This document shows, piece after piece, positions 27,376 to 36,301 of a DNA stretch of 64,000 bases. The notes beneath the pieces were generated by a model. The model was not told the origin of the DNA and made no database searches. It was given only the letters and a program-made list of their open reading frames with translations. The stretch spans positions 1,116,001-1,180,000 of the forward strand of contig CP069394.1 in NCBI GenBank assembly GCA_016887485.1, written 5' to 3'. This DNA comes from Chloroflexota bacterium. Lineage in GTDB: Bacteria; Chloroflexota; Anaerolineae; Anaerolineales; Anaerolineaceae. Numbering within the stretch: position 1 is the stretch's first letter; each line of letters opens with the position of its first letter. A program made the position numbers and the translations under genes.

Positions 27376-28341
27376 CTAGAGGCCGCGCTCACCTCGGATA
27401 TAGGGAATGCCTAAGGCTGCTGGAGTACCCTTCCGTTTCCTTCTGGCCGCGCCGGAACCCCAAACCAACGCCACAATCGTCAAAAGGAAGGGCACCATTT
27501 GAAGGAAGAAAACCAGGTTGTGGTTATAGAAGAAGGGATTGCGGAAACCAAGCAGCATCGCCGGTCCCTGCAGGTCCAGAGTGAACCTTCGGAGCATACC
27601 GAAGAAATAACCACCCAGGGCAGCCGTAATCGGATTCCAACGGGCAAAGATCACCAGAGCAATCGCAATCCAGCCTTGCCCGGAAGTCGTCAGGCTGCTA
27701 TACCAACCGGGAGAGATCGCAATGCTGATGGTTGCTCCAGCCAAACCAGCCAGACAACCGCCAACGAAAGTGTAGAGATAACGCGTGCCATACACACTGA
27801 TCCCCAGGCTATCCGCTGCCGAGGGTTTCTCACCCACAGCCCGCATATGCATCCCTGGCCGGGTTTTATAAATGAAGTACCAGGCAATCGGGATCAGCAG
27901 ATAACCCACATAGACCAGCAAGTTGAAATCAGTAAAGATAATCGGGCCGATATAGGGAATTTTTGAAAGCAAAGGAATTGAGAAGCTAGGAATCGTGGGG
28001 GTGTTCAGTCCGGTCAGTCCCTCACCCAATACCAGGGCCAACCCTGTGCCTAAAAAGGTCAGCGACAAGCCGCTAACCGTCTGATCAGCTTGTAATGAAA
28101 TCACCACCAGCCCGTGCATCAGGCTCAAGATGCCGCCAGCCAGGATCCCCGCCATCAACCCTAACCAGGCGTTTTGAGTGACATGCGCAACTTTGAATGC
28201 CGCCATAGCGCCAATCAGCATCATCCCTTCCACACCAAGGTTCATCACACCGGAACGCTCCGCCAGAATTTCGCCGATAGCTGCAATCAGCAGGATTGTT
28301 CCGGTGGAAAGCCCTGCCCGAAATATGACCAATAAGTTCAT
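27376..28341 (-). CDS. BMP-type nucleoside ABC transporter permease (second)
   Basis: 321 residues with eight or more membrane helices; the GVMNLGVEGMMLIGAM segment at about 32-47 is the signature of the RbsC-like permeases of nucleoside (BmpA/NupQ, YufQ-type) importers. The start overlaps the stop of the upstream permease by 4 nt (ATGA), giving tight coupling. Works as a heterodimer with that permease in the cytoplasmic membrane. Confidence 0.9.
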   Translation of the reverse strand: MNLLVIFRAGLSTGTILLIAAIGEILAERSGVMNLGVEGMMLIGAMAAFKVAHVTQNAWLGLMAGILAGGILSLMHGLVVISLQADQTVSGLSLTFLGTGLALVLGEGLTGLNTPTIPSFSIPLLSKIPYIGPIIFTDFNLLVYVGYLLIPIAWYFIYKTRPGMHMRAVGEKPSAADSLGISVYGTRYLYTFVGGCLAGLAGATISIAISPGWYSSLTTSGQGWIAIALVIFARWNPITAALGGYFFGMLRRFTLDLQGPAMLLGFRNPFFYNHNLVFFLQMVPFLLTIVALVWGSGAARRKRKGTPAALGIPYIRGERGL

Positions 28342-29444
28342 GCTGCCTCCTCCTGATGCCTGCGAACGATGCTGACTTTATAGCGCAGGAAGACATCACT
28401 GCTGATGACCAGGAAAAGAATGGTTCCCTGGATCATAAATGAAAGGCCTGAGGGTTGAATTTCACGTCCGGCCACAATCAGTGCCCCAAAGAGGATCGCC
28501 ACCGGAATGACCGCAAAGGGGTTCAATTTTGCCAGCCAGGCCACGATCACACCGGAAAAGCCATAATTGGTCGAGATCCGTTCCTGCAGGCGGTGAACCA
28601 CACCGGTCACTTCAGACATCCCTGCCAACCCGGCCAAAGCGCCGGAGAGCATCATCACCAGGATGATGTTCTTCTTGATGTTGATCCCGGCATAATTCGC
28701 GGCTTTGGGGTTATCACCGATCAAAGTGATTTCATAGCCCCAGCGGCTGTGCTTCAAGATGACCCAGATCAGAACAGCCGCTACCAGCCCAAACACCACC
28801 CCAAGGTGGAGGGTGATCCCCGAGAAGAAGGGGTGCTCCCGGGCCAGATCTGCTAAACGAGGCAGCCAGGCGACCTTGTCGAAGGTCGGTGTCATCTGAA
28901 AGCCTGCGTCACTGTATTTACCAAAGATCCAGTAGTTATTCCAATAGACAGCCACATAGTTCAACATCAAGGTCGTAATGATCTCATTGACATTGAACAT
29001 GGCTTTCAAAAAGCCGGGGATAAACCCATAAAGTGCGCCGCCCAGGATACCCATCACCGCCATCAAAGTCAGCACCATCCATTTGGGGCTATCCAGAGGG
29101 ATGATCGGCACCAGCACAACCATGCTGGCAAAGAAAGCGCCCATATAAAATTGGCCTTCAGCGCCAATGTTGAGGATGTTCATCTTAAAGGCAACAGCAC
29201 ACCCAAGACCGATCATAATCAGGGGGGTGGCCTTCACTAAAATATCAGAAAACGCTCCCCAGCTGCCAAAAGCGGCACTGAAGAAATATCTGTAAACTCG
29301 GAAGGGATTCCCGCCAATAGCCCATAAAACAATCCCGCTGATGATGAATGCCACGATGATCGCACCCATCGAGGTTGCAAAGGGCAGCCACTTCGGGACA
29401 TCTTTTGTTCGAGGTTCAAATTTGATTCTATATGGCAGTCTCAT
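28338..29444 (-). CDS. BMP-type nucleoside ABC transporter permease (first)
   Basis: 368 residues, about ten hydrophobic segments, with MNILNIGAEGQFYMGAF at about 88-105, the counterpart of the RbsC-like signature in the partner permease, and LIGDNPKAANYAGI in the cytoplasmic loop. YufP/NupP-type. The ATG overlaps the stop of the ATPase gene by 4 nt. Confidence 0.9.
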   Translation of the reverse strand: MRLPYRIKFEPRTKDVPKWLPFATSMGAIIVAFIISGIVLWAIGGNPFRVYRYFFSAAFGSWGAFSDILVKATPLIMIGLGCAVAFKMNILNIGAEGQFYMGAFFASMVVLVPIIPLDSPKWMVLTLMAVMGILGGALYGFIPGFLKAMFNVNEIITTLMLNYVAVYWNNYWIFGKYSDAGFQMTPTFDKVAWLPRLADLAREHPFFSGITLHLGVVFGLVAAVLIWVILKHSRWGYEITLIGDNPKAANYAGINIKKNIILVMMLSGALAGLAGMSEVTGVVHRLQERISTNYGFSGVIVAWLAKLNPFAVIPVAILFGALIVAGREIQPSGLSFMIQGTILFLVISSDVFLRYKVSIVRRHQEEAA

Positions 29445-30976
29445 TCATCTCTCCTCAGTGTCCCGGTCATCATCATACCAATCTGATTGAGATCCGCATC
29501 TTTGGCGTCCATCTGCCCCACCAGCTCACCATCAAAAATGACGGTAATCCGGTCGCTCAGCATCAGCAGCTCATCCAGCTCTTCTGAAATGAGCATGATC
29601 GCGGCGCCTTTCTGGCGCTGCTCCAGCAATAACTTCTGGATGCCCTCAATCGCGCCCACATCAAGGCCGCGCGTTGGTTGCATGGCAACGATCAATTGCG
29701 GTGCGCCGGAAATCTCACGGGCCAGGATCAGCTTTTGCAGGTTCCCACCTGAGAGCTTGCGCGCCATCGTATCCACGGTTGGCGCTTGAATATCATAATT
29801 CTCTTTCAAACCACTTGCATGATCATGAGCAGCGACATAGTTGATCCGCCAGCCATTGCTGATCGGATCCTGAATGTAACTCTTCATGATGGCGTTTTTG
29901 GTGATGGATAGATTAGGCGCTGTGCCAACCCCGGTACGATCTTCGGGGATATGCGCCAATCCACAGCGAATGGATTTCCGTGGGGAACAATTGCCCACTT
30001 CCGTGCCATTGATCCTGATCGAACCCTCGCTCGAACGCAATCCGGTTAAGGCTTCCACCAATTCACTCTGGCCATTGCCGGCAATCCCGGCAACCCCAAA
30101 GATCTCACCTTCCCGAATCTGGAAGGACACGCCTCTCACAGCCGGCAATCCCCGGTTGTTATCGGCGGAAAGGTCTTCCACTTCCAACACAACCTTTCCC
30201 GGCTCTCTTTCCTGTTTATCCACCTGGAAGATGACCTTGCGCCCAACCATCAACTCTGCCAGCTGCGTTCGGGTCAGCCCTTGCGGGTCAATCCCTTCTG
30301 CTGTGGCCTTGCCTTTACGGAGGACTGTCAACCGGTCGGCCACTGCCTGGACTTCGTTCAATTTATGGCTGATAAAGATGATGGACTTCCCCTGATCGAC
30401 CAGGGTCCGCATAGTCTCCATTAATTCGTCAATCTCCTGGGGAGCCAAAACAGCGGTGGGCTCATCGAGGATCAGGATATCCGCTCCTCGATAGAGCGTC
30501 TTTAGAATTTCCACCCTTTGCTGCTCTCCCACGGAGAGCTGCCAGATCTTGGCAGTAGGTTCTACCTTCAAACCAAAAGTCGCCTGTAATTTCTCAATCT
30601 TCTTATCATAGGTTGATAGATTCATGAAGAATTTTGGTTCGTTGAGACCCAACAGGATATTTTCCGTCACTGTCAGGGTAGGTACAAGCATGAAGTGCTG
30701 ATGCACCATCCCAATCCCAGCCGCGATGGCATCTTTTGGTGAACGGAAGGAGACTGGTTTTCCTTTAACCTTGATGACACCCGATTCGGGTCGATACATC
30801 CCCGAAAGGACATTCATCAAAGTGCTCTTACCAGCGCCATTTTCACCTAAAAGCGCATGAATTTCGCCCTTCTTCAAGGTGAAATTCACATGATCATTTG
30901 CTAAAACGCCTGGGAAACGGATGACAATATCCCGCATATCAACTGCGTATTCATTATCATCAGGTATATGTGTCAT
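29441..30976 (-). CDS. Nucleoside ABC transporter ATP-binding protein, tandem ATPase domains
   Basis: 511 residues with two ATPase halves, the rule for the sugar/nucleoside CUT2-BMP class. Half 1: Walker A GENGAGKST (about 44-52), signature LSVGEQQRVEILK, Walker B ILILDEPTAVL. Half 2 starts near 265 with a degenerate Walker A (GIAGNGQSE) and signature LSGGNLQKLILARE. The asymmetric second site is normal for the family. Powers uptake through the two permeases encoded downstream. Confidence 0.93.
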   Translation of the reverse strand: MTHIPDDNEYAVDMRDIVIRFPGVLANDHVNFTLKKGEIHALLGENGAGKSTLMNVLSGMYRPESGVIKVKGKPVSFRSPKDAIAAGIGMVHQHFMLVPTLTVTENILLGLNEPKFFMNLSTYDKKIEKLQATFGLKVEPTAKIWQLSVGEQQRVEILKTLYRGADILILDEPTAVLAPQEIDELMETMRTLVDQGKSIIFISHKLNEVQAVADRLTVLRKGKATAEGIDPQGLTRTQLAELMVGRKVIFQVDKQEREPGKVVLEVEDLSADNNRGLPAVRGVSFQIREGEIFGVAGIAGNGQSELVEALTGLRSSEGSIRINGTEVGNCSPRKSIRCGLAHIPEDRTGVGTAPNLSITKNAIMKSYIQDPISNGWRINYVAAHDHASGLKENYDIQAPTVDTMARKLSGGNLQKLILAREISGAPQLIVAMQPTRGLDVGAIEGIQKLLLEQRQKGAAIMLISEELDELLMLSDRITVIFDGELVGQMDAKDADLNQIGMMMTGTLRRDE

Positions 30977-31033
30977 AGATCCAACTTAATCGATAAATGC
31001 ACCAAAAATGATGCGTGATGAGGGCCATATGAC

Positions 31034-31070
31034 ACAACCAGGAAACTGCCGAAGCAAGTTTCCTGGTTGT
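31034..31070 (-). other. Intercistronic stem-loop after the BMP lipoprotein gene
   Basis: A perfect 14-bp stem (ACAACCAGGAAACT / AGTTTCCTGGTTGT) with a 9-nt loop lies in the 109-nt gap between the binding-protein stop and the ATPase start. No U-run follows on the minus strand, so partial termination or mRNA protection is more likely than full termination. Confidence 0.8.
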
Positions 31071-31085
31071 GGTTATTTAGTTCAA

Positions 31086-32291
31086 TTAATCAAGTGAGGG
31101 TAATTCTGCAGTGATGTTCTCATTCCACCAGTACATACAGGTGGTGCAGTCACTGCCGAATTGAGCGAAACCGTCCAGGTCGAGCTGTTCGAGGCTCACA
31201 CCATCAGCCAGAATTTCATTACCCTGGTTGTCGGTGATGGGGCCTTTGAAAACATCGAAACGAGTGAATTCGCCAGCCAGCATCTGGGCAAGGATCTCGC
31301 GAACCATCGCCAAATCCTCTGCGGGGAGGTCAGCCAAACCGGGCTGTAATTCCTCACCCTCCATGAAGCCGTACAAGCCTAAGCCGCCGGAATCAGCATC
31401 GAAGTATTCCCAGCCACCCTTCCAGGTGCCTTCGCGAGAAGCTTCAACGATTCGAGCGTATTCCACACCCCAGTTCCAGTACATGGAGGTGAGGCAGGCA
31501 TCGACTGTGCAGTTTCCATAATAGTCATAGGTGATGCCCCATTTTCCTTCAGGAGCAGCAATGGCGGGAGCAGGTGTGTCCGCACCGGTCATAACGACCT
31601 GAGCGCCAGCCGAGAACAGGGATTCAGCGCCCTCCTGTTCGAGGATGGGATCGTGCCAGGTGTTGATGAAACGGACATCAATGGTGCAATCAGGGCAGGT
31701 CTTTTGAGCACCGAGGGCAAAAGCGTTACCCAGGCGGAGTTCTTCCGGGATCGGGAAGGTGGCCATATAACCAAGTTTCGGATTACCATCCATCTTTGCC
31801 CGGGAACCGGCCAGCATACCAGCCAAGTATTTTATATCTTCCATGGCACCCATCAGGTTGCCAAAGTTTTCGCCATTGGCTTTGTAACCGCTGACATGGA
31901 TGATATCCACATCCGGGAATTCATCTGCAACAATTTCAGATGCATCCATAAAACCAAAGGAAGTTGTGAAGATTACATCAAAACCTTTGCGAGCCAGTGA
32001 GCGGATCACCTGTTCGGCATCTGCACCCTCCGGCACGTTTTCAATGTAAGCGGTGTGAACATCAGCGACATTCTCTTCTACATACATCCGGCCGACATCA
32101 TGCGATTGTGACCAACCGCCGTCGTCGTGTGGGCCAACATAGACAAAAGCAACGTTATATTTACCTTCTTCAGGGGCAGGGATTTGGAAGCCTGCAACGG
32201 TTTCTTCGGTTGCTTCGGTTTGACCACAAGCTGAAAGGGCAAACACTGCAACAACTAAGATCGTGAAAAGCCAAAAAATGTGTTTTCTCAT
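31086..32291 (-). CDS. BMP-family nucleoside-binding lipoprotein
   Basis: 401 residues with a lipoprotein signal (LSACGQ; Cys about 22) and an AAGGATGAG ribosome site. The body is the PnrA/BmpA fold: NVAFVYVGPHDDGGWSQSHD near the start, DVIFTTSFGFMD, a nucleoside-binding D in VVMTGADTPAP, and VEYARIVEASREGTWKGG near the end. First gene of the five-gene operon; it captures purine nucleosides (or bases) outside the membrane for the ATPase and the two permeases. Confidence 0.9.
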   Translation of the reverse strand: MRKHIFWLFTILVVAVFALSACGQTEATEETVAGFQIPAPEEGKYNVAFVYVGPHDDGGWSQSHDVGRMYVEENVADVHTAYIENVPEGADAEQVIRSLARKGFDVIFTTSFGFMDASEIVADEFPDVDIIHVSGYKANGENFGNLMGAMEDIKYLAGMLAGSRAKMDGNPKLGYMATFPIPEELRLGNAFALGAQKTCPDCTIDVRFINTWHDPILEQEGAESLFSAGAQVVMTGADTPAPAIAAPEGKWGITYDYYGNCTVDACLTSMYWNWGVEYARIVEASREGTWKGGWEYFDADSGGLGLYGFMEGEELQPGLADLPAEDLAMVREILAQMLAGEFTRFDVFKGPITDNQGNEILADGVSLEQLDLDGFAQFGSDCTTCMYWWNENITAELPSLD

Positions 32292-33090
32292 CTCTCATCC
32301 TTCATTGTCTAAATTCTTGGTTGGATAGAATTGACAGAATTGCCTAGTTCTTCGCCATTTTCTCCTTTCCTAATAACCATATAGACCAAGAGATGAAAAC
32401 ATTTCATGTCCATCATTCGATCACATGGTAGTGAAATAATAAATACAGCAATTGATCCTTCGCCAGAAAAGATAAATCCGGAATGGATTTTTGGATTGCA
32501 CACATCCCCCAAGAAACGACCTGTGTTGTCTTGATAATTTGGTGGTTCCTAACGCAAGAAGTTTTCCTTGCAAACATAACCTCAACCCATTCGGTAATGG
32601 TCAGTCAATAGACAGATTTTATCATTAATTATCGTGAGAATTGGTTGTCTATACATCTTAACTAATCGTTTACATTCAAATAGCCAGATAGTCCATCCCT
32701 CCTTCAATTGTCAGACTTATACCCTATATTTTATACGAAAATGGAGAATTTCATAGGTTAAAGGATACCATTTTTATGAAATTCATCGTCTGAGAATTTT
32801 TCTTAAATGTTTTGATTGTTTTATGGTGTACATGATATGCGCTTTATTCGGTGAAACTACACAATCTGATATTCTATTACACTCTGAAGAAGCCCATCCT
32901 TGCCTTTTTTCCAGGGAATTATTGCATAAAGCAATTCCCCTCAACTAATCTCTCCAAGGGTTCCCATGCGGATCATCCAATATATCCATTTGAATATTCT
33001 CCATCTTTTTGGTCTTCTGACTTAAATACCAGCTCAGATAAACATAACTTAACGGCTCGTTAACAACCTGATGAAGTAAAATCGTGGATA
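32292..33090. other. 800-bp AT-rich intergenic region between divergent ABC operons
   Basis: It separates the BMP operon (minus) from the amino-acid operon (plus). Short open frames (such as 32309-32512 and 32851-33063) lack ribosome sites and family character. No purine riboswitch core could be recognised on the minus strand. Promoters for the BMP operon must lie here but none stands out. Confidence 0.5.
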
Positions 33091-33092
33091 TT

Positions 33093-33101
33093 TGCTAAAA
33101 T
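33093..33101 (+). promoter_or_regulatory. Extended -10 promoter of the His leader peptide
   Basis: TGCTAAAAT is a TGn extension joined to a five-of-six -10 box (33096-33101). The -35 position is poor, as tolerated with an extended -10. Transcription should begin near 33108, only about four bases before the leader-peptide ATG. Confidence 0.5.
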
Positions 33102-33111
33102 CGAACCAATT

Positions 33112-33195
33112 ATGATAAAGACATACGTTCAAGAACTCAAGCGAAATCACCATCATAACCGACCTTCAACCGGAGGAGCGGCGCTTGGCGCTTAA
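33112..33195 (+). CDS. Leaderless His-rich leader peptide of a candidate attenuator
   Basis: 27 codons starting MIKTYVQELK, with R-N-H-H-H-N-R at residues 11-17 (His codons CAC CAT CAT at 33148-33156), and a TAA at 33193. There is no Shine-Dalgarno; the predicted transcription start is a few bases before the ATG, so it would be a leaderless mRNA. The terminator at 33223 follows the stop by 27 nt, and an amino-acid ABC operon comes next. GGAGGA in codons 21-22 (33172-33177) can pair with UCCUCC (33230-33235) in the terminator's 5' side, so a ribosome stalled at His would favour read-through. CGTTCAA near the peptide start can also pair with TTGAACG after its stop. Confidence 0.55.
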   Translation: MIKTYVQELKRNHHHNRPSTGGAALGA

Positions 33196-33222
33196 TTGAA
33201 CGCAGTCTACTAGCGTACACCG

Positions 33223-33252
33223 AAGACCTTCCTCCAATGGAAGGTCTTTTTT
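33223..33252 (+). terminator. Attenuator terminator upstream of the amino-acid ABC operon
   Basis: A perfect 10-bp stem (AAGACCTTCC / GGAAGGTCTT) with a 6-nt loop and six U. Nothing but the 27-codon peptide precedes it, so its natural role is to stop transcription before the ABC operon. Just beyond it a strong GAGGAG site precedes a five-codon mini-ORF (MMRPF, 33269-33286). Confidence 0.8.
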
Positions 33253-33350
33253 GTTACTTGAGGAGAAGATGATGCGACCTTTTTGATACTAGAAACCGTT
33301 CAACCTAACCTATTGAATTTCAAAGTAAAAACTATTTTTGAGGAGAAAAA

Positions 33351-34088
33351 ATGAAGCAGAAAATTGTGATCACACTTGTTGCCATATTTGCCCTGGGTCT
33401 ATTGGCCTCCTGCACCGGTCAATCTGATGCGCTGGTTGTTGCCACCGATCCCGCCTTCCCACCATTTGAAATGGTTGACGAAGAGAGCAAAGAGGTCATC
33501 GGATTTGATATTGACCTGATGAATGCCATCGCTGAAAAAGCTGGCCTGGATATCGTATTCCAGAATGTTGCTTGGGATCCGCTGCTGGCGGGTATGGCCG
33601 ACTGTCAATATGATATGGCGATTTCCGGAATGACTATTACACCCGAAAGGGCTGAGCAGTTCAGTTTCTCAATTCCATACATAAATGCAGGCCAGATCGT
33701 CACAGTTCAAGCAGACAACACCACCATCAATGGTCCTGAGGACCTGGTTGGTTTGACAATTGGCGCTCAGATCGGCACCACGGGTGGAATGGAAGCTGAA
33801 GCCATCGAGGGTACGACCCTCAAAGTTTACGATACTTACGAATTGGCTTTCCTTGATCTAGAAAATGGGCAGGTGGACGCTGTCATTGCCGATTATCCCA
33901 CAACGGTTGCATTTGTTTCAAAGAATGGTTCAGACCTCAAGACGGTTGGTGATATCTTCACCGATGAGGGTTACGGCGTCGCTTTCTGTCTTGGCAATGA
34001 CGAATTAATTGCACAGGTCAATGCTGCCATCGCTGAACTTCAGGCTGAAGGCTTCATCGATGAATTAGTTCTTGAATGGTACAACTAG
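33351..34088 (+). CDS. Polar amino-acid ABC transporter substrate-binding lipoprotein
   Basis: 245 residues with a lipoprotein signal (GLLASC; Cys about 22) and a GAGGAG ribosome site. Family 3 solute-binding fold: VVATDPAFPPFEMVD, GFDIDLMNAIAEKAG, the ligand-carboxylate Arg in TITPERAEQFSFS, and VIADYPT, whose Asp grips the amino group. Ligand class His/Arg/Lys/Gln cannot be separated by eye; the upstream leader peptide with three His hints at histidine. It delivers to the permease and ATPase that follow. Confidence 0.9.
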   Translation: MKQKIVITLVAIFALGLLASCTGQSDALVVATDPAFPPFEMVDEESKEVIGFDIDLMNAIAEKAGLDIVFQNVAWDPLLAGMADCQYDMAISGMTITPERAEQFSFSIPYINAGQIVTVQADNTTINGPEDLVGLTIGAQIGTTGGMEAEAIEGTTLKVYDTYELAFLDLENGQVDAVIADYPTTVAFVSKNGSDLKTVGDIFTDEGYGVAFCLGNDELIAQVNAAIAELQAEGFIDELVLEWYN

Positions 34089-34121
34089 CAATTTTTAGGT
34101 AATCCCATCTTCTTGGTTCAC

Positions 34122-34152
34122 CCTCTCGCCAGGGATTTATCCTGGCGAGAGG
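34122..34152 (+). other. Intercistronic stem-loop after the amino-acid binding-protein gene
   Basis: A perfect 12-bp stem (CCTCTCGCCAGG / CCTGGCGAGAGG) with a 7-nt loop, 33 nt after the stop and 17 nt before the permease ATG. No U-run. It matches the placement of the stem-loops at 4770 and 31034 but not their sequence. Confidence 0.8.
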
Positions 34153-34169
34153 ATTGAGAAAGAGTTCTT

Positions 34170-34982
34170 ATGCGAATCCGAAAATCCTTGGAAAAAGTTC
34201 CTGGCTTTGAAGTAGCCAATCACCGAATCGACAGCTGGTGGTGGCTGGTGGCTGCGGTCGTCGCCATTGTAGCGCTTCTGGCTGGGCTCGAACCCGATCC
34301 ATATTGGCGAATCATCAAGTTTGTCAGTGATGGCTTACTGGTGTCCATTGGCGTCACTGTTGTTTCATTTATCCTGACCTTACTATTGGGTCTGCTCACC
34401 GCTTTAGGCCGCCTCTCAAAGAACGGCATCATCCGCTGGATCACCACCATTTATGTGGAAGTAGCCCGCGGTATTCCGCTCCTTGTTCAATTATTGTTCT
34501 GGTATTTTGCATTTCCTTCCATTATTCAAGGCTTTGGCGAACTGATCCACTACGAACCCTTTGAGCACTACCACGCCAACCCCTTTGCTATGGCCATATT
34601 AGGCCTAACCTTCTGCTATAGTGCTTATATGAGTGAAATCTACCGGGCAGGCATCCAGAGTGTCCCCAAAGGTCAAAACGAGGCTGCCCGCAGTTTAGGC
34701 ATGACCCGTAATCAGGCTATGCGCTATGTGATCCTCCCCCAGGCTTTTCGGACCATCCTGCCGCCGGGTGGGAATGAATTCATTTCATTATTGAAAGATT
34801 CATCCCTGGTCAGCGTTGTCTCTGTGGCGGATATCACTCGCCGAGGCCGAGAATTCATGGCTTCCAGCTTCCTCCCGGTTGAGACCTGGCTGATGATTGC
34901 CCTGATCTACCTGATCATGACCCTGATCTCCGCCCGAATCGTTGCCTGGATCGAACGCAAAACGCAAACGGAGGAACGTTAA
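34170..34982 (+). CDS. Polar amino-acid ABC transporter permease
   Basis: 270 residues, HisM/GlnP-type. Helices start near 25; [19 protein letters not shown] and the EAA loop [20 protein letters not shown] are diagnostic. Only one permease is encoded, so it should work as a homodimer. A 12-residue-longer N-terminus than usual precedes the first helix. The stop is followed two bases later by the ATPase start. Confidence 0.93.
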
Positions 34983-34983
34983 A

Positions 34984-35733
34984 ATGACCTCTCTCACCCC
35001 AACCCCCACCCCTATCATTCAAGTCGAAAACCTGCATAAACACTTCGGAGAAACCGCCGCTCTGAACGGCGTTAGCCTGGATGTCTACCCCGGCGAAGTT
35101 GTGCTGATCATCGGCCCCTCCGGTTCCGGAAAATCAACGCTGCTGCGCTGTTTGAACCGTCTGGAAGAATTTCAGGCCGGCTCCGTGATCGTTGACGACA
35201 TCCCCCTGACCACTGCCGAAAATATCAACGCCATACGCACTGAAGTCGGTATGGTTTTCCAATCCTTCAACCTCTTTCCCCACCTGACGGTGCTGGAAAA
35301 CGTGACTATCGCCCAAAAGGTCGTGCGGAAACGCAGCCCCGAAGAAGCGGATGAAATTGGACGGGCACTTCTGGCGAAAGTCGGCATCCCTGAAAAGGAA
35401 AGTGACTTCCCCGGGCAGCTTTCCGGCGGCCAGCAGCAGCGAGTCGCCATTGCCCGAGCCTTGGCGATGAACCCCAAGATCATCCTCTTTGATGAACCCA
35501 CCAGCGCGCTGGACCCGGAAATGATCCAGGAAGTGTTGGATGTCATGCTCCAGCTTGCCAAAGAAGGGATGACAATGGTTGTCGTCTCCCACGAGATGGG
35601 CTTTGCGCGGGCGGCAGCGGACCGGGCCGTGCTCATGGATGACGGGCTGATCGTTGAAGAAGCCCCCCCTGAGGTGCTTTTCAGTAATCCCACCCAGGAC
35701 CGCACCAAAGAATTCCTCAGCAAAATCCTGTAG
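34984..35733 (+). CDS. Polar amino-acid ABC transporter ATP-binding protein
   Basis: 249 residues from the ATG at 34984 (GGAGG site, 9 nt); an upstream start inside the permease gene is rejected. Walker [11 protein letters not shown]-loop [17 protein letters not shown], signature [19 protein letters not shown], Walker [16 protein letters not shown]-switch VVSHEMGFA. HisP/GlnQ family. Starts two bases after the permease stop and is ended by the terminator at 35757. Confidence 0.95.
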
Positions 35734-35756
35734 ATACATTATTAACCATTCCATAA

Positions 35757-35794
35757 TAAAAACCGCTTTGAGTTGCCTCTCAAAGTGGTTTTTT
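35757..35794 (+). terminator. Terminator of the amino-acid ABC operon
   Basis: AAAACCGCTTTGAG / CTCAAAGTGGTTTT (one G-U pair) with a 6-nt loop, ending in six U. Confidence 0.85.
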
Positions 35795-35839
35795 AATGCT
35801 ATGATTTAAACGACACAAAGACAATCCAAAGGAGCAAAA

Positions 35840-36301
35840 ATGAAAATTGCAATTGGCAGTGATCATGCTGCATTTGAAATGAAGAAACTCGTCATCCAAC
35901 ACCTCAAAGATCGGGACATTGAGGTTCTGGACCTCGGGACAAACTCCTCAGAACGAACCCACTACCCAATCTATGGTCAACGGGTTGGCAAAGCTGTGGC
36001 AAACGGTGAAGCGGATCTGGGAATCACCATTTGCGGCACCGGCATCGGCATCGGTATGTCCGCCGGTAAGGTCAAGGGCATCCGAGCCGCGATCGTCAGC
36101 GACACCTACTCCGCCCGGATGGCACGCCAGCACAACAACGCCAACGTGCTCTCCTTCGGTGCTCGGGTAGTCGGCCCCGGCCTGGCTGAGGACATTGTGG
36201 ACGCCTTCCTCGACCATGAATTTGAGGGTGGCCGCCATGCCATCCGCGTGAACCTGATCGCGGACATTGATGAAGGCAAAGACATCACTGAAATCCCCTA
36301 G
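35840..36301 (+). CDS. rpiB: Ribose-5-phosphate isomerase B
   Basis: 153 residues with an AAAGGAG ribosome site. RpiB/LacAB fold: MKIAIGSDHAAF with the phosphate/sugar-binding D-H pair, and the active-site loop ICGTGIGIGMSAGKVKG with its conserved Cys. Interconverts ribose-5-phosphate and ribulose-5-phosphate in the cytosol. It stands alone with its own terminator; LacA/B (galactose-6-phosphate) activity is unlikely without a lac cluster. Confidence 0.93.
   Translation: MKIAIGSDHAAFEMKKLVIQHLKDRDIEVLDLGTNSSERTHYPIYGQRVGKAVANGEADLGITICGTGIGIGMSAGKVKGIRAAIVSDTYSARMARQHNNANVLSFGARVVGPGLAEDIVDAFLDHEFEGGRHAIRVNLIADIDEGKDITEIP

Follow-up and report, generated by a model that had tools for sequence, protein, structure and literature searches.

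Polycysteine leaderless sORFs of mycobacteria were reportedly described by Canestrari in 2020. Excerpts of PMC4633059 contain an earlier proposal of such ORFs, and the M. smegmatis cysteine case is termed translation attenuation in the literature extracts available. In Streptomyces lividans, leuL, trpL, ilvL and metL are presented as leaderless leader peptides in the retrieved part of PMC8079986, metL being a Met leader located before metNIQ. For some Firmicutes, passages of PMC9413887 propose RNA attenuators as regulators of his operons and/or hisXYZ-type transporters. Arginine-sensing leader ORFs are documented, in extracts of PMC13009471, for rbfL of Staphylococcus aureus, which has a Shine-Dalgarno sequence (SD) and blocks the translation of a biofilm regulator, and reportedly, in PMC6386406, for the Salmonella speF leader. 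Regarding their distribution, the accessible sections of PMC2965389 and PMC1262725 place leader-peptide systems in Proteobacteria and Actinobacteria and extend them to Firmicutes, and those of PMC4833913 count leader genes in Chloroflexi among others, the group being called too noisy to judge. Among the matches listed for the openly licensed PubMed Central literature, represented by partial texts, no Chloroflexota leader-peptide attenuator or Arg-/Lys-coded attenuator of this kind was found.

The locus described here belongs to a 64 kb stretch of DNA, hereafter the window, from an uncultured bacterium of the family Anaerolineaceae, in the order Anaerolineales, which belongs to Chloroflexota. 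An initial annotation had read it as a leader-peptide attenuator responding to histidine; its nature as an attenuator placed before an amino-acid ABC operon is retained, histidine as the sole signal is not. The use of such a device by an uptake operon, which had been considered unusual, is less so in view of the metNIQ leader and of the hisXYZ-type proposals. We propose that the locus is very probably a ribosome-mediated transcription attenuator, leaderless or nearly leaderless, tuned to basic amino acids.

Promoter, leader ORF and terminator of the window locus

The leader ORF (MIKTYVQELKRNHHHNRPSTGGAALGA; 33112–33195, forward strand), read from the sequence and compared with its relatives, comprises 27 codons from the ATG at 33112 to the TAA at 33193–33195, and its peptide core, KRNHHHNR, includes the His codons CAC CAT CAT at 33148–33156. 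A -10 box TAAAAT (33096–33101, forward strand), with a TG upstream at 33093–33094, ends 10 nt before the ATG. Both the 27-codon ORF, about four bases past a predicted transcription start, and its three consecutive His codons had been pointed out in the initial annotation and are confirmed by direct reading. An intrinsic terminator with an 11-pair stem (33222–33249, forward strand) separates the ORF from the importer operon; it had been reported in the initial annotation and is indeed present, 26 nt and not 27 nt past the leader stop. Direct reading also locates GGAGGA at 33172–33177, TCCTCC at 33230–33235 and the two copies of GACCTTC reported before, one within the ORF (33161–33167) and one in the terminator arm (33225–33231).

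The 148-nt leader of the window folds better than 200 of 200 shuffles (z -4.2), the terminator contributing much to this value. A codon-blind layout detector, requiring TAnnnT or four close variants 8–12 nt before an ATG, an ORF of 13–45 codons and a terminator at most 95 nt past its stop, returned the leader at 33112 as the sole match on both strands of the window, this detector having been written after related leaders had been seen. The leader promoter was not listed by a consensus promoter scan of the window. The motif GTTAAC occurs at 33059–33064 and also at three related loci (L003, L004 and L007), about 30–40 nt upstream of the -10 box, and is a possible operator near the same-genus leaders. 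On the other side, a second GGAGG-like purine run lies about 10–30 nt past the terminator in the window (33260–33265), in L003–L007, in L013 and at many importer loci, away from the SD of the gene itself and without an obvious conserved ORF.

According to the available text of Zheng et al. (PMC3160421), bacterial leaderless genes have a TANNNT element located some 12 bp upstream of their start, and Chloroflexi are listed among the groups having them. In the window, the first T of the -10 box is found about 16 bp before the ATG, and a 5′ untranslated stretch of about 4 nt (33108–33111, forward strand), devoid of SD, is therefore expected. From this spacing, transcription is predicted to start near 33108, and the leader ORF is predicted to be nearly, perhaps not strictly, leaderless. 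Among 77 curated leaders, whose choice of ATG favoured a -10 spacing of 6–11 nt, the distance between the -10 box and the ATG is most commonly 10 nt (41 leaders), and lies between 8 and 10 nt in 58 and between 6 and 10 nt in 72 of them. In 69 of the 77, a TTGACA-like -35 box (5 of 6 or better) is present, beginning 34–46 nt upstream of the ATG. Of the 77 leader ATGs, 3 have an SD-like 4-mer in front of them, compared with 65 of 74 first downstream genes, any in-frame ATG near the start being allowed for the latter.

The importer operon and the codons of related leaders

The operon encodes, all on the forward strand, an amino-acid ABC substrate-binding lipoprotein (33351–34088), a permease (34170–34982) and a GlnQ/HisP-like ATPase (34942–35733), the latter more likely starting at the ATG at 34984 than at the listed 34942. 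The permease scores above the cut-off of TIGR01726 (HEQRo_perm_3TM), and the ATPase below the curated cut-offs. For the binding protein, the best NCBIfam model is TIGR01096 (Lys/Arg/Orn), below its cut-off, and no curated specificity cut-off is passed; its nearest solved relatives are the glutamine-named 6h30, the ancestral AncQR and, further down, ArtJ. We infer that this operon imports basic amino acids. No hisD, hisG, argG or lysA, and no PF04715 anthranilate-synthase gene, was found in the genome itself (95% complete), and among 15 other genomes of the genus, several of them incomplete, hisD was not found in 13 and argG was found in none. Since hisD, hisG, argG and lysA are not found in the genome itself, an uptake gated by tRNA charging makes sense: the host would have to import His and Arg, possibly Lys, and would gain by tying the importer to the charging of the corresponding tRNAs. 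On the minus strand, a divergent neighbour operon (27376–32291) encodes a lipoprotein, an ATPase and two permeases and, on reading, resembles a BMP-type (nucleoside) ABC transporter.

When 101 genomes were searched with the binding protein, 30 loci were obtained, 29 of them assessable, L008 being cut off at a contig end. Each of the six close same-genus orthologues that could be assessed (L002–L007, E below 1e-110 in this search, the window included) has the leader upstream, and it was recognised by eye at L009, L013 and L019, giving a total of 9 of the 29; no such leader was recognised in the 420–450 nt upstream of the match at the other 20. The peptide cores are KRKPHHR in L003, HIHHAKRQN in L004, KRKSLDH in L005, KRHPHHYHR in L006 and KRKPKYR in L007 and, beyond the close orthologues, KHPRARHR in L009, KRTKKN in L013 and SRRRNE in L019. 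Since the His run varies among these nine leaders, what is constant at the sequence level is the presence of basic residues (Lys, Arg, His), not the His run. Five of the six same-genus peptides share the ending PGGAA(L/F)G(A/V), which takes the form TGGAALGA at the window locus. In L004 and L013 the conserved 3′ half is read to its stop in a different frame (EPFLKERLLALN and FPQEDRLVVLKQ, respectively), compared with the terminal GGAALGA of other same-genus leaders, most of which carry a TTAAYTGA end giving a stop in both frames. As this 3′ half is open in two frames, a frameshift was also considered.

These comparisons bear on the possibility that the attenuator is specific for histidine, with only the HHH run being relevant and the operon being a histidine importer, which we consider improbable. 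The three His codons of the window, the HH of L003, L004 and L006, the lack of detected hisG and hisD and the HHHH leaders of both same-genus hisD loci (L150 and L160) would be in agreement with it. However, L005 and L007 keep the promoter, the ORF, the RNA core and the terminator before the same transporter with no His run, a case that the initial annotation itself had held to speak against histidine as the ligand. Moreover, K and R codons share with His the zone permissive for anti-termination (see below), and the importer leaders found elsewhere are K/R-rich, with or without His.

The extent of the basic-residue leaders was approached with covariance models, which were trained on K/R-rich leaders, so that their matches are biased toward these. 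A 7-leader model matched 105 of 147 family genomes at E up to 1, many of the matches being weak and some being plain terminators. With a 29-leader model, matches at E up to 0.001 were obtained in 69 of the 400 genomes searched within the order, at least four of these genomes resting on matches judged to be plain terminators. In a phylum sample of 301 genomes, all four genomes matched were inside Anaerolineales, and the leader was not found in the sampled genomes outside the order by these models, whose filters can lose weak matches. The genome itself has one convincing match; none of the six inspected among 14 others has a leader. Several matches inspected in other genomes were also plain terminators.

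In total, 88 model-match loci were tabulated (30, plus 58 of 60 further stretches picked from the model-match rows) and 77 were kept. Ten were left out for want of a fitting leader (L061, L106, L109, L115, L118, L120, L122, L128, L133 and L134), and L131, a real-looking argG leader, was dropped since its ATG is off the expected place; L069–L079, L138 and L139 were left out of the table. After removal of near-duplicates, 56 of the 77 form a non-redundant set. With classes drawn from short self-written motifs (six labels set by hand, L101 doubtful), the 77 leaders precede importers of two kinds (10 and 33, with one further doubtful case), lysX-type operons (16), homocitrate-synthase-like genes (4), argG (12) and hisD (1); NCBIfam names were assigned for ten representative downstream proteins. 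The argG leaders contain on average 5.1 Arg, 1.0 Lys and 0.1 His codons, the lysX leaders 3.2 Arg, 2.1 Lys and 0.3 His, the homocitrate-synthase-like leaders (three of the four being near-identical) 3.0 Lys and 2.0 Arg, and the 43 importer leaders 1.5–1.6 His, 2.2–2.6 Lys and 2.1–2.4 Arg. Leader codons therefore tend, as far as these counts indicate, to match the amino acid of the operon. In the two importer classes, K/R/H account for 26% and 25% of in-frame codons against 13–16% out of frame. No in-frame enrichment was found for the lysX leaders (0.213 vs 0.209 and 0.177), and in the argG and homocitrate-synthase leaders one other frame equals frame 0 in K/R/H. For these three classes it is therefore the clusters and not the bulk count that constitute the evidence.

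Such clusters were also found at biosynthetic loci. The hisD loci were collected from 61 genomes, independently of the covariance models (28 of 30 used, two partial genes being left out), and 23 of 24 argG loci over the family cut-off were used. A scan for His-rich ORFs found short ones upstream of hisD at 21 of 24 loci; with L165 and L166, which came from the codon-blind detector, His-rich leaders were found at 23 of 28 hisD loci overall. Used alone, this detector found ORFs at 20 of the 28 hisD loci, all 20 having three or more His within six residues, and at 8 of the 23 argG loci, all eight having three or more Arg within six residues. Upstream of argG (L186–L207 and L212), many loci across the order show an Arg-clustered short ORF about 180–270 nt upstream, several of them with leaderless spacing. 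For trpE, the layout was found at none of the 15 loci used (16 fetched) and no Trp leader was found in the scanned stretches; for ilvB, one of 19 loci had an ORF, rich in Ile, Leu and Val. In both scans, promoters located far upstream in long operons are out of reach. The short ORFs rich in Leu, Ile and Val seen upstream of ilvB are those of L225 (at -656, beginning MLINLLVLVPVILLLVIEK) and, as a second case, L234 (at -288, beginning MSISIIVVLVVLIELLIVK). These ilvB cases suggest branched-chain attenuators in some lineages, as isolated cases only.

Predicted alternative pairing of the leader RNA

Five segments, all on the forward strand, describe the predicted RNA switch. In the ribosome-free protector structure, segment A (TCAAGCG, 33137–33143) pairs with segment D (CGCTTGG, 33182–33188), immediately 5′ of the stop codon. 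Segment B (33159–33167) comprises CCG (33159–33161), pairing with CGG at 33179–33181, and CCTTC (33163–33167), pairing with GGAGG at 33172–33176, which hides segment C (GGAGGAG, 33172–33178), the 5′ strand of the anti-terminator. Segment C can pair instead with segment E, formed by the 5′ arm and the loop of the terminator (about 33226–33236). In an alignment of 78 rows, the three nested helices and the terminator show covariation, with 23 of 27 pairs changed on both sides and none of 500 shuffles reaching the observed values; this alignment was fitted to the tested structure and has one antisense match among its rows. A hairpin with a T-run follows all 77 curated leaders.

A conserved fold binding a small molecule, i.e. 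a riboswitch in which the ORF would be incidental, could be envisaged on the basis of this covariation, of the strong conservation of the leader 3′ half as RNA, and of the L004 peptide ending in another frame. We regard it as very unlikely, since the spacing of the ATG is near-fixed and the open frames have codons that track the amino acid of the operon, and since no Rfam family reaches its gathering score at 13 loci. Within positions 30000–36000 of the window, Rfam gave 12 matches at E up to 10, to chance families only. In this region and at the 13 loci, there was no match to the T-box models or to the lysine riboswitch model; His_leader (RF00514) was absent from the window matches and did not reach its gathering score at any of the 13 loci.

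For 56 non-redundant leaders, the cognate C:E duplex has a mean energy of -17.05 kcal/mol compared with -13.88 kcal/mol when partners are swapped, and none of 100,000 permutations reaches the cognate value, either overall or within class. At 41 of the 56 leaders, no more than 5% of the shuffled versions of that leader give an equally good duplex, and the value of the window leader (-17.2) is better than 100 of 100 shuffles (mean -9.2). It is the second of the importer classes, together with the lysX leaders, that accounts for the cognate gain, the swap test being nearly flat in the importer class of the window (-13.86 vs -13.26) and for argG (-18.30 vs -17.93). In alignment A4, a column-fixed count of C:E pairs shows no covariation (62.9% paired, 63.3% when shuffled), which we attribute to a shifting register.

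Folding of the RNA made up to 33238 gives a C:E probability of 0.22 with no ribosome. With a ribosome, this probability is 0.99 at all nine first free bases tested from 33145 to 33172, and 0.00 when the first free base is 33178, 33196 or 33208. When the first free base is placed 13 nt downstream of the point where the A-site codon begins, the permissive A-site codons extend from V6 to R17, and permissiveness is lost from P18 on, stop codon included. K10, R11, H13, H14, H15 and R17 are inside this zone and K3 is outside. The control codons in this simulation are K10 R11 N12 H13 H14 H15 N16 R17 (33139–33162, forward strand), and the model predicts that stalls from K10 to R17 would all give anti-termination, so that K10, R11, H13–H15 and R17 would all count. 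The initial annotation had proposed GGAGGA and UCCUCC as anti-terminator, freed by a ribosome at His and masked by one at the stop. Duplex energies and stall folding support this putative pairing, and the folds of both alternatives give, in simulation, the anti-terminator for the K10–R17 stalls and the terminator with the ribosome at the stop. Across the 56 leaders, K/R/H codons occupy more permissive sites than the others (0.535 vs 0.394; none of 5000 within-peptide shuffles reaches this), a signal which may be due in part to codons at the C-terminal end that the RNA helix holds constant. The mean value is 0.33 in the absence of a ribosome and 0.16 when the stop codon occupies the A site. In the full-length transcript, the terminator is preferred in every fold, and anti-termination therefore needs a kinetic order of events.

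A nascent peptide may also arrest its own ribosome by sensing a free ligand, in the style of TnaC or SpeFL. A peptide responding, inside the ribosome tunnel, to a free basic amino acid instead of to tRNA charging would be in agreement with the C-terminal end shared by five of the six same-genus peptides. We regard this as very unlikely, since it is the protector helix that specifies this end, which is different in other genera, and since the control residues are interchangeable K, R and H runs at variable places. Also very unlikely is a plain promoter-proximal terminator without regulation, which would account for a strong hairpin that always wins in full-length folds but not for the alternative pairing, the promoter-ORF-terminator order or the codon match across operons.

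Proposed mechanism and comparison with known attenuators

We propose that the RNA would start a few bases before the AUG and that a ribosome would begin near its 5′ end without SD. Under low charging of Lys-, Arg- or His-tRNA, the ribosome would stall somewhere from K10 to R17 and cover or strip A and B; GGAGGA, thus freed, would pair with UCCUCC ahead of the synthesis of the terminator 3′ arm, and the polymerase would read into the uptake operon. When the control codons are read fast, the ribosome would pass C and reach the stop, and the terminator would form. In the absence of a ribosome, A:D and B:C would mostly hide C, and the terminator would also form.

At the level of the order, it is likely that one leaderless attenuator design has been re-coded within Anaerolineales, with His codons for his genes, Arg codons for argG, Lys/Arg codons for lysX and homocitrate-synthase-like genes and mixed codons for uptake, that the leader of the auxotrophs integrates the charging of three tRNAs, and that this represents a new RNA family with Arg-/Lys-coded attenuation. 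The mechanism is known; the RNA family, the phylum and the specificity appear to be new. If this is correct, leader-peptide attenuation would be extended to Chloroflexota, the sensor ribosome could start on leaderless RNA across a whole order, and leader codons would reveal the transporter substrates and the auxotrophies of uncultured bacteria. Related leaders that nature has coded with His, Arg, Lys or a mixture of them would also allow the effect of stall position on attenuation to be tested.

As far as the extracts of PMC9413887 describe them, the enterobacterial his leader (RF00514) and the classical attenuators likewise combine an ORF with regulating codons, a protector, an anti-terminator and a terminator, with a stall-dependent choice between them. 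Compared with the classical his leader, that of the window has no SD, some 4 nt separate its start codon from the predicted 5′ end, it combines several basic amino acids, the operon is one of uptake, and no Rfam model is matched. The Firmicutes His leaders, in the same extracts, resemble it by their 3–5 His codons, their terminator and anti-terminator and their proposed use for transporters; they respond to His only, and the extracts describe neither a leaderless start nor a scaffold shared with Arg/Lys. According to the retrieved sections on them, the leaderless leaders of Actinobacteria differ by their phylum and their amino acids, the terminator of metL being unclear, and are similar in having regulating codons and, in one case, in preceding an amino-acid ABC importer (metNIQ). 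Finally, in the excerpts concerning it, rbfL serves neither amino-acid uptake nor synthesis, unlike the window leader, whereas in both rbfL and the speF leader Arg codons in the leader region sense the arginine supply, as would be the case here.
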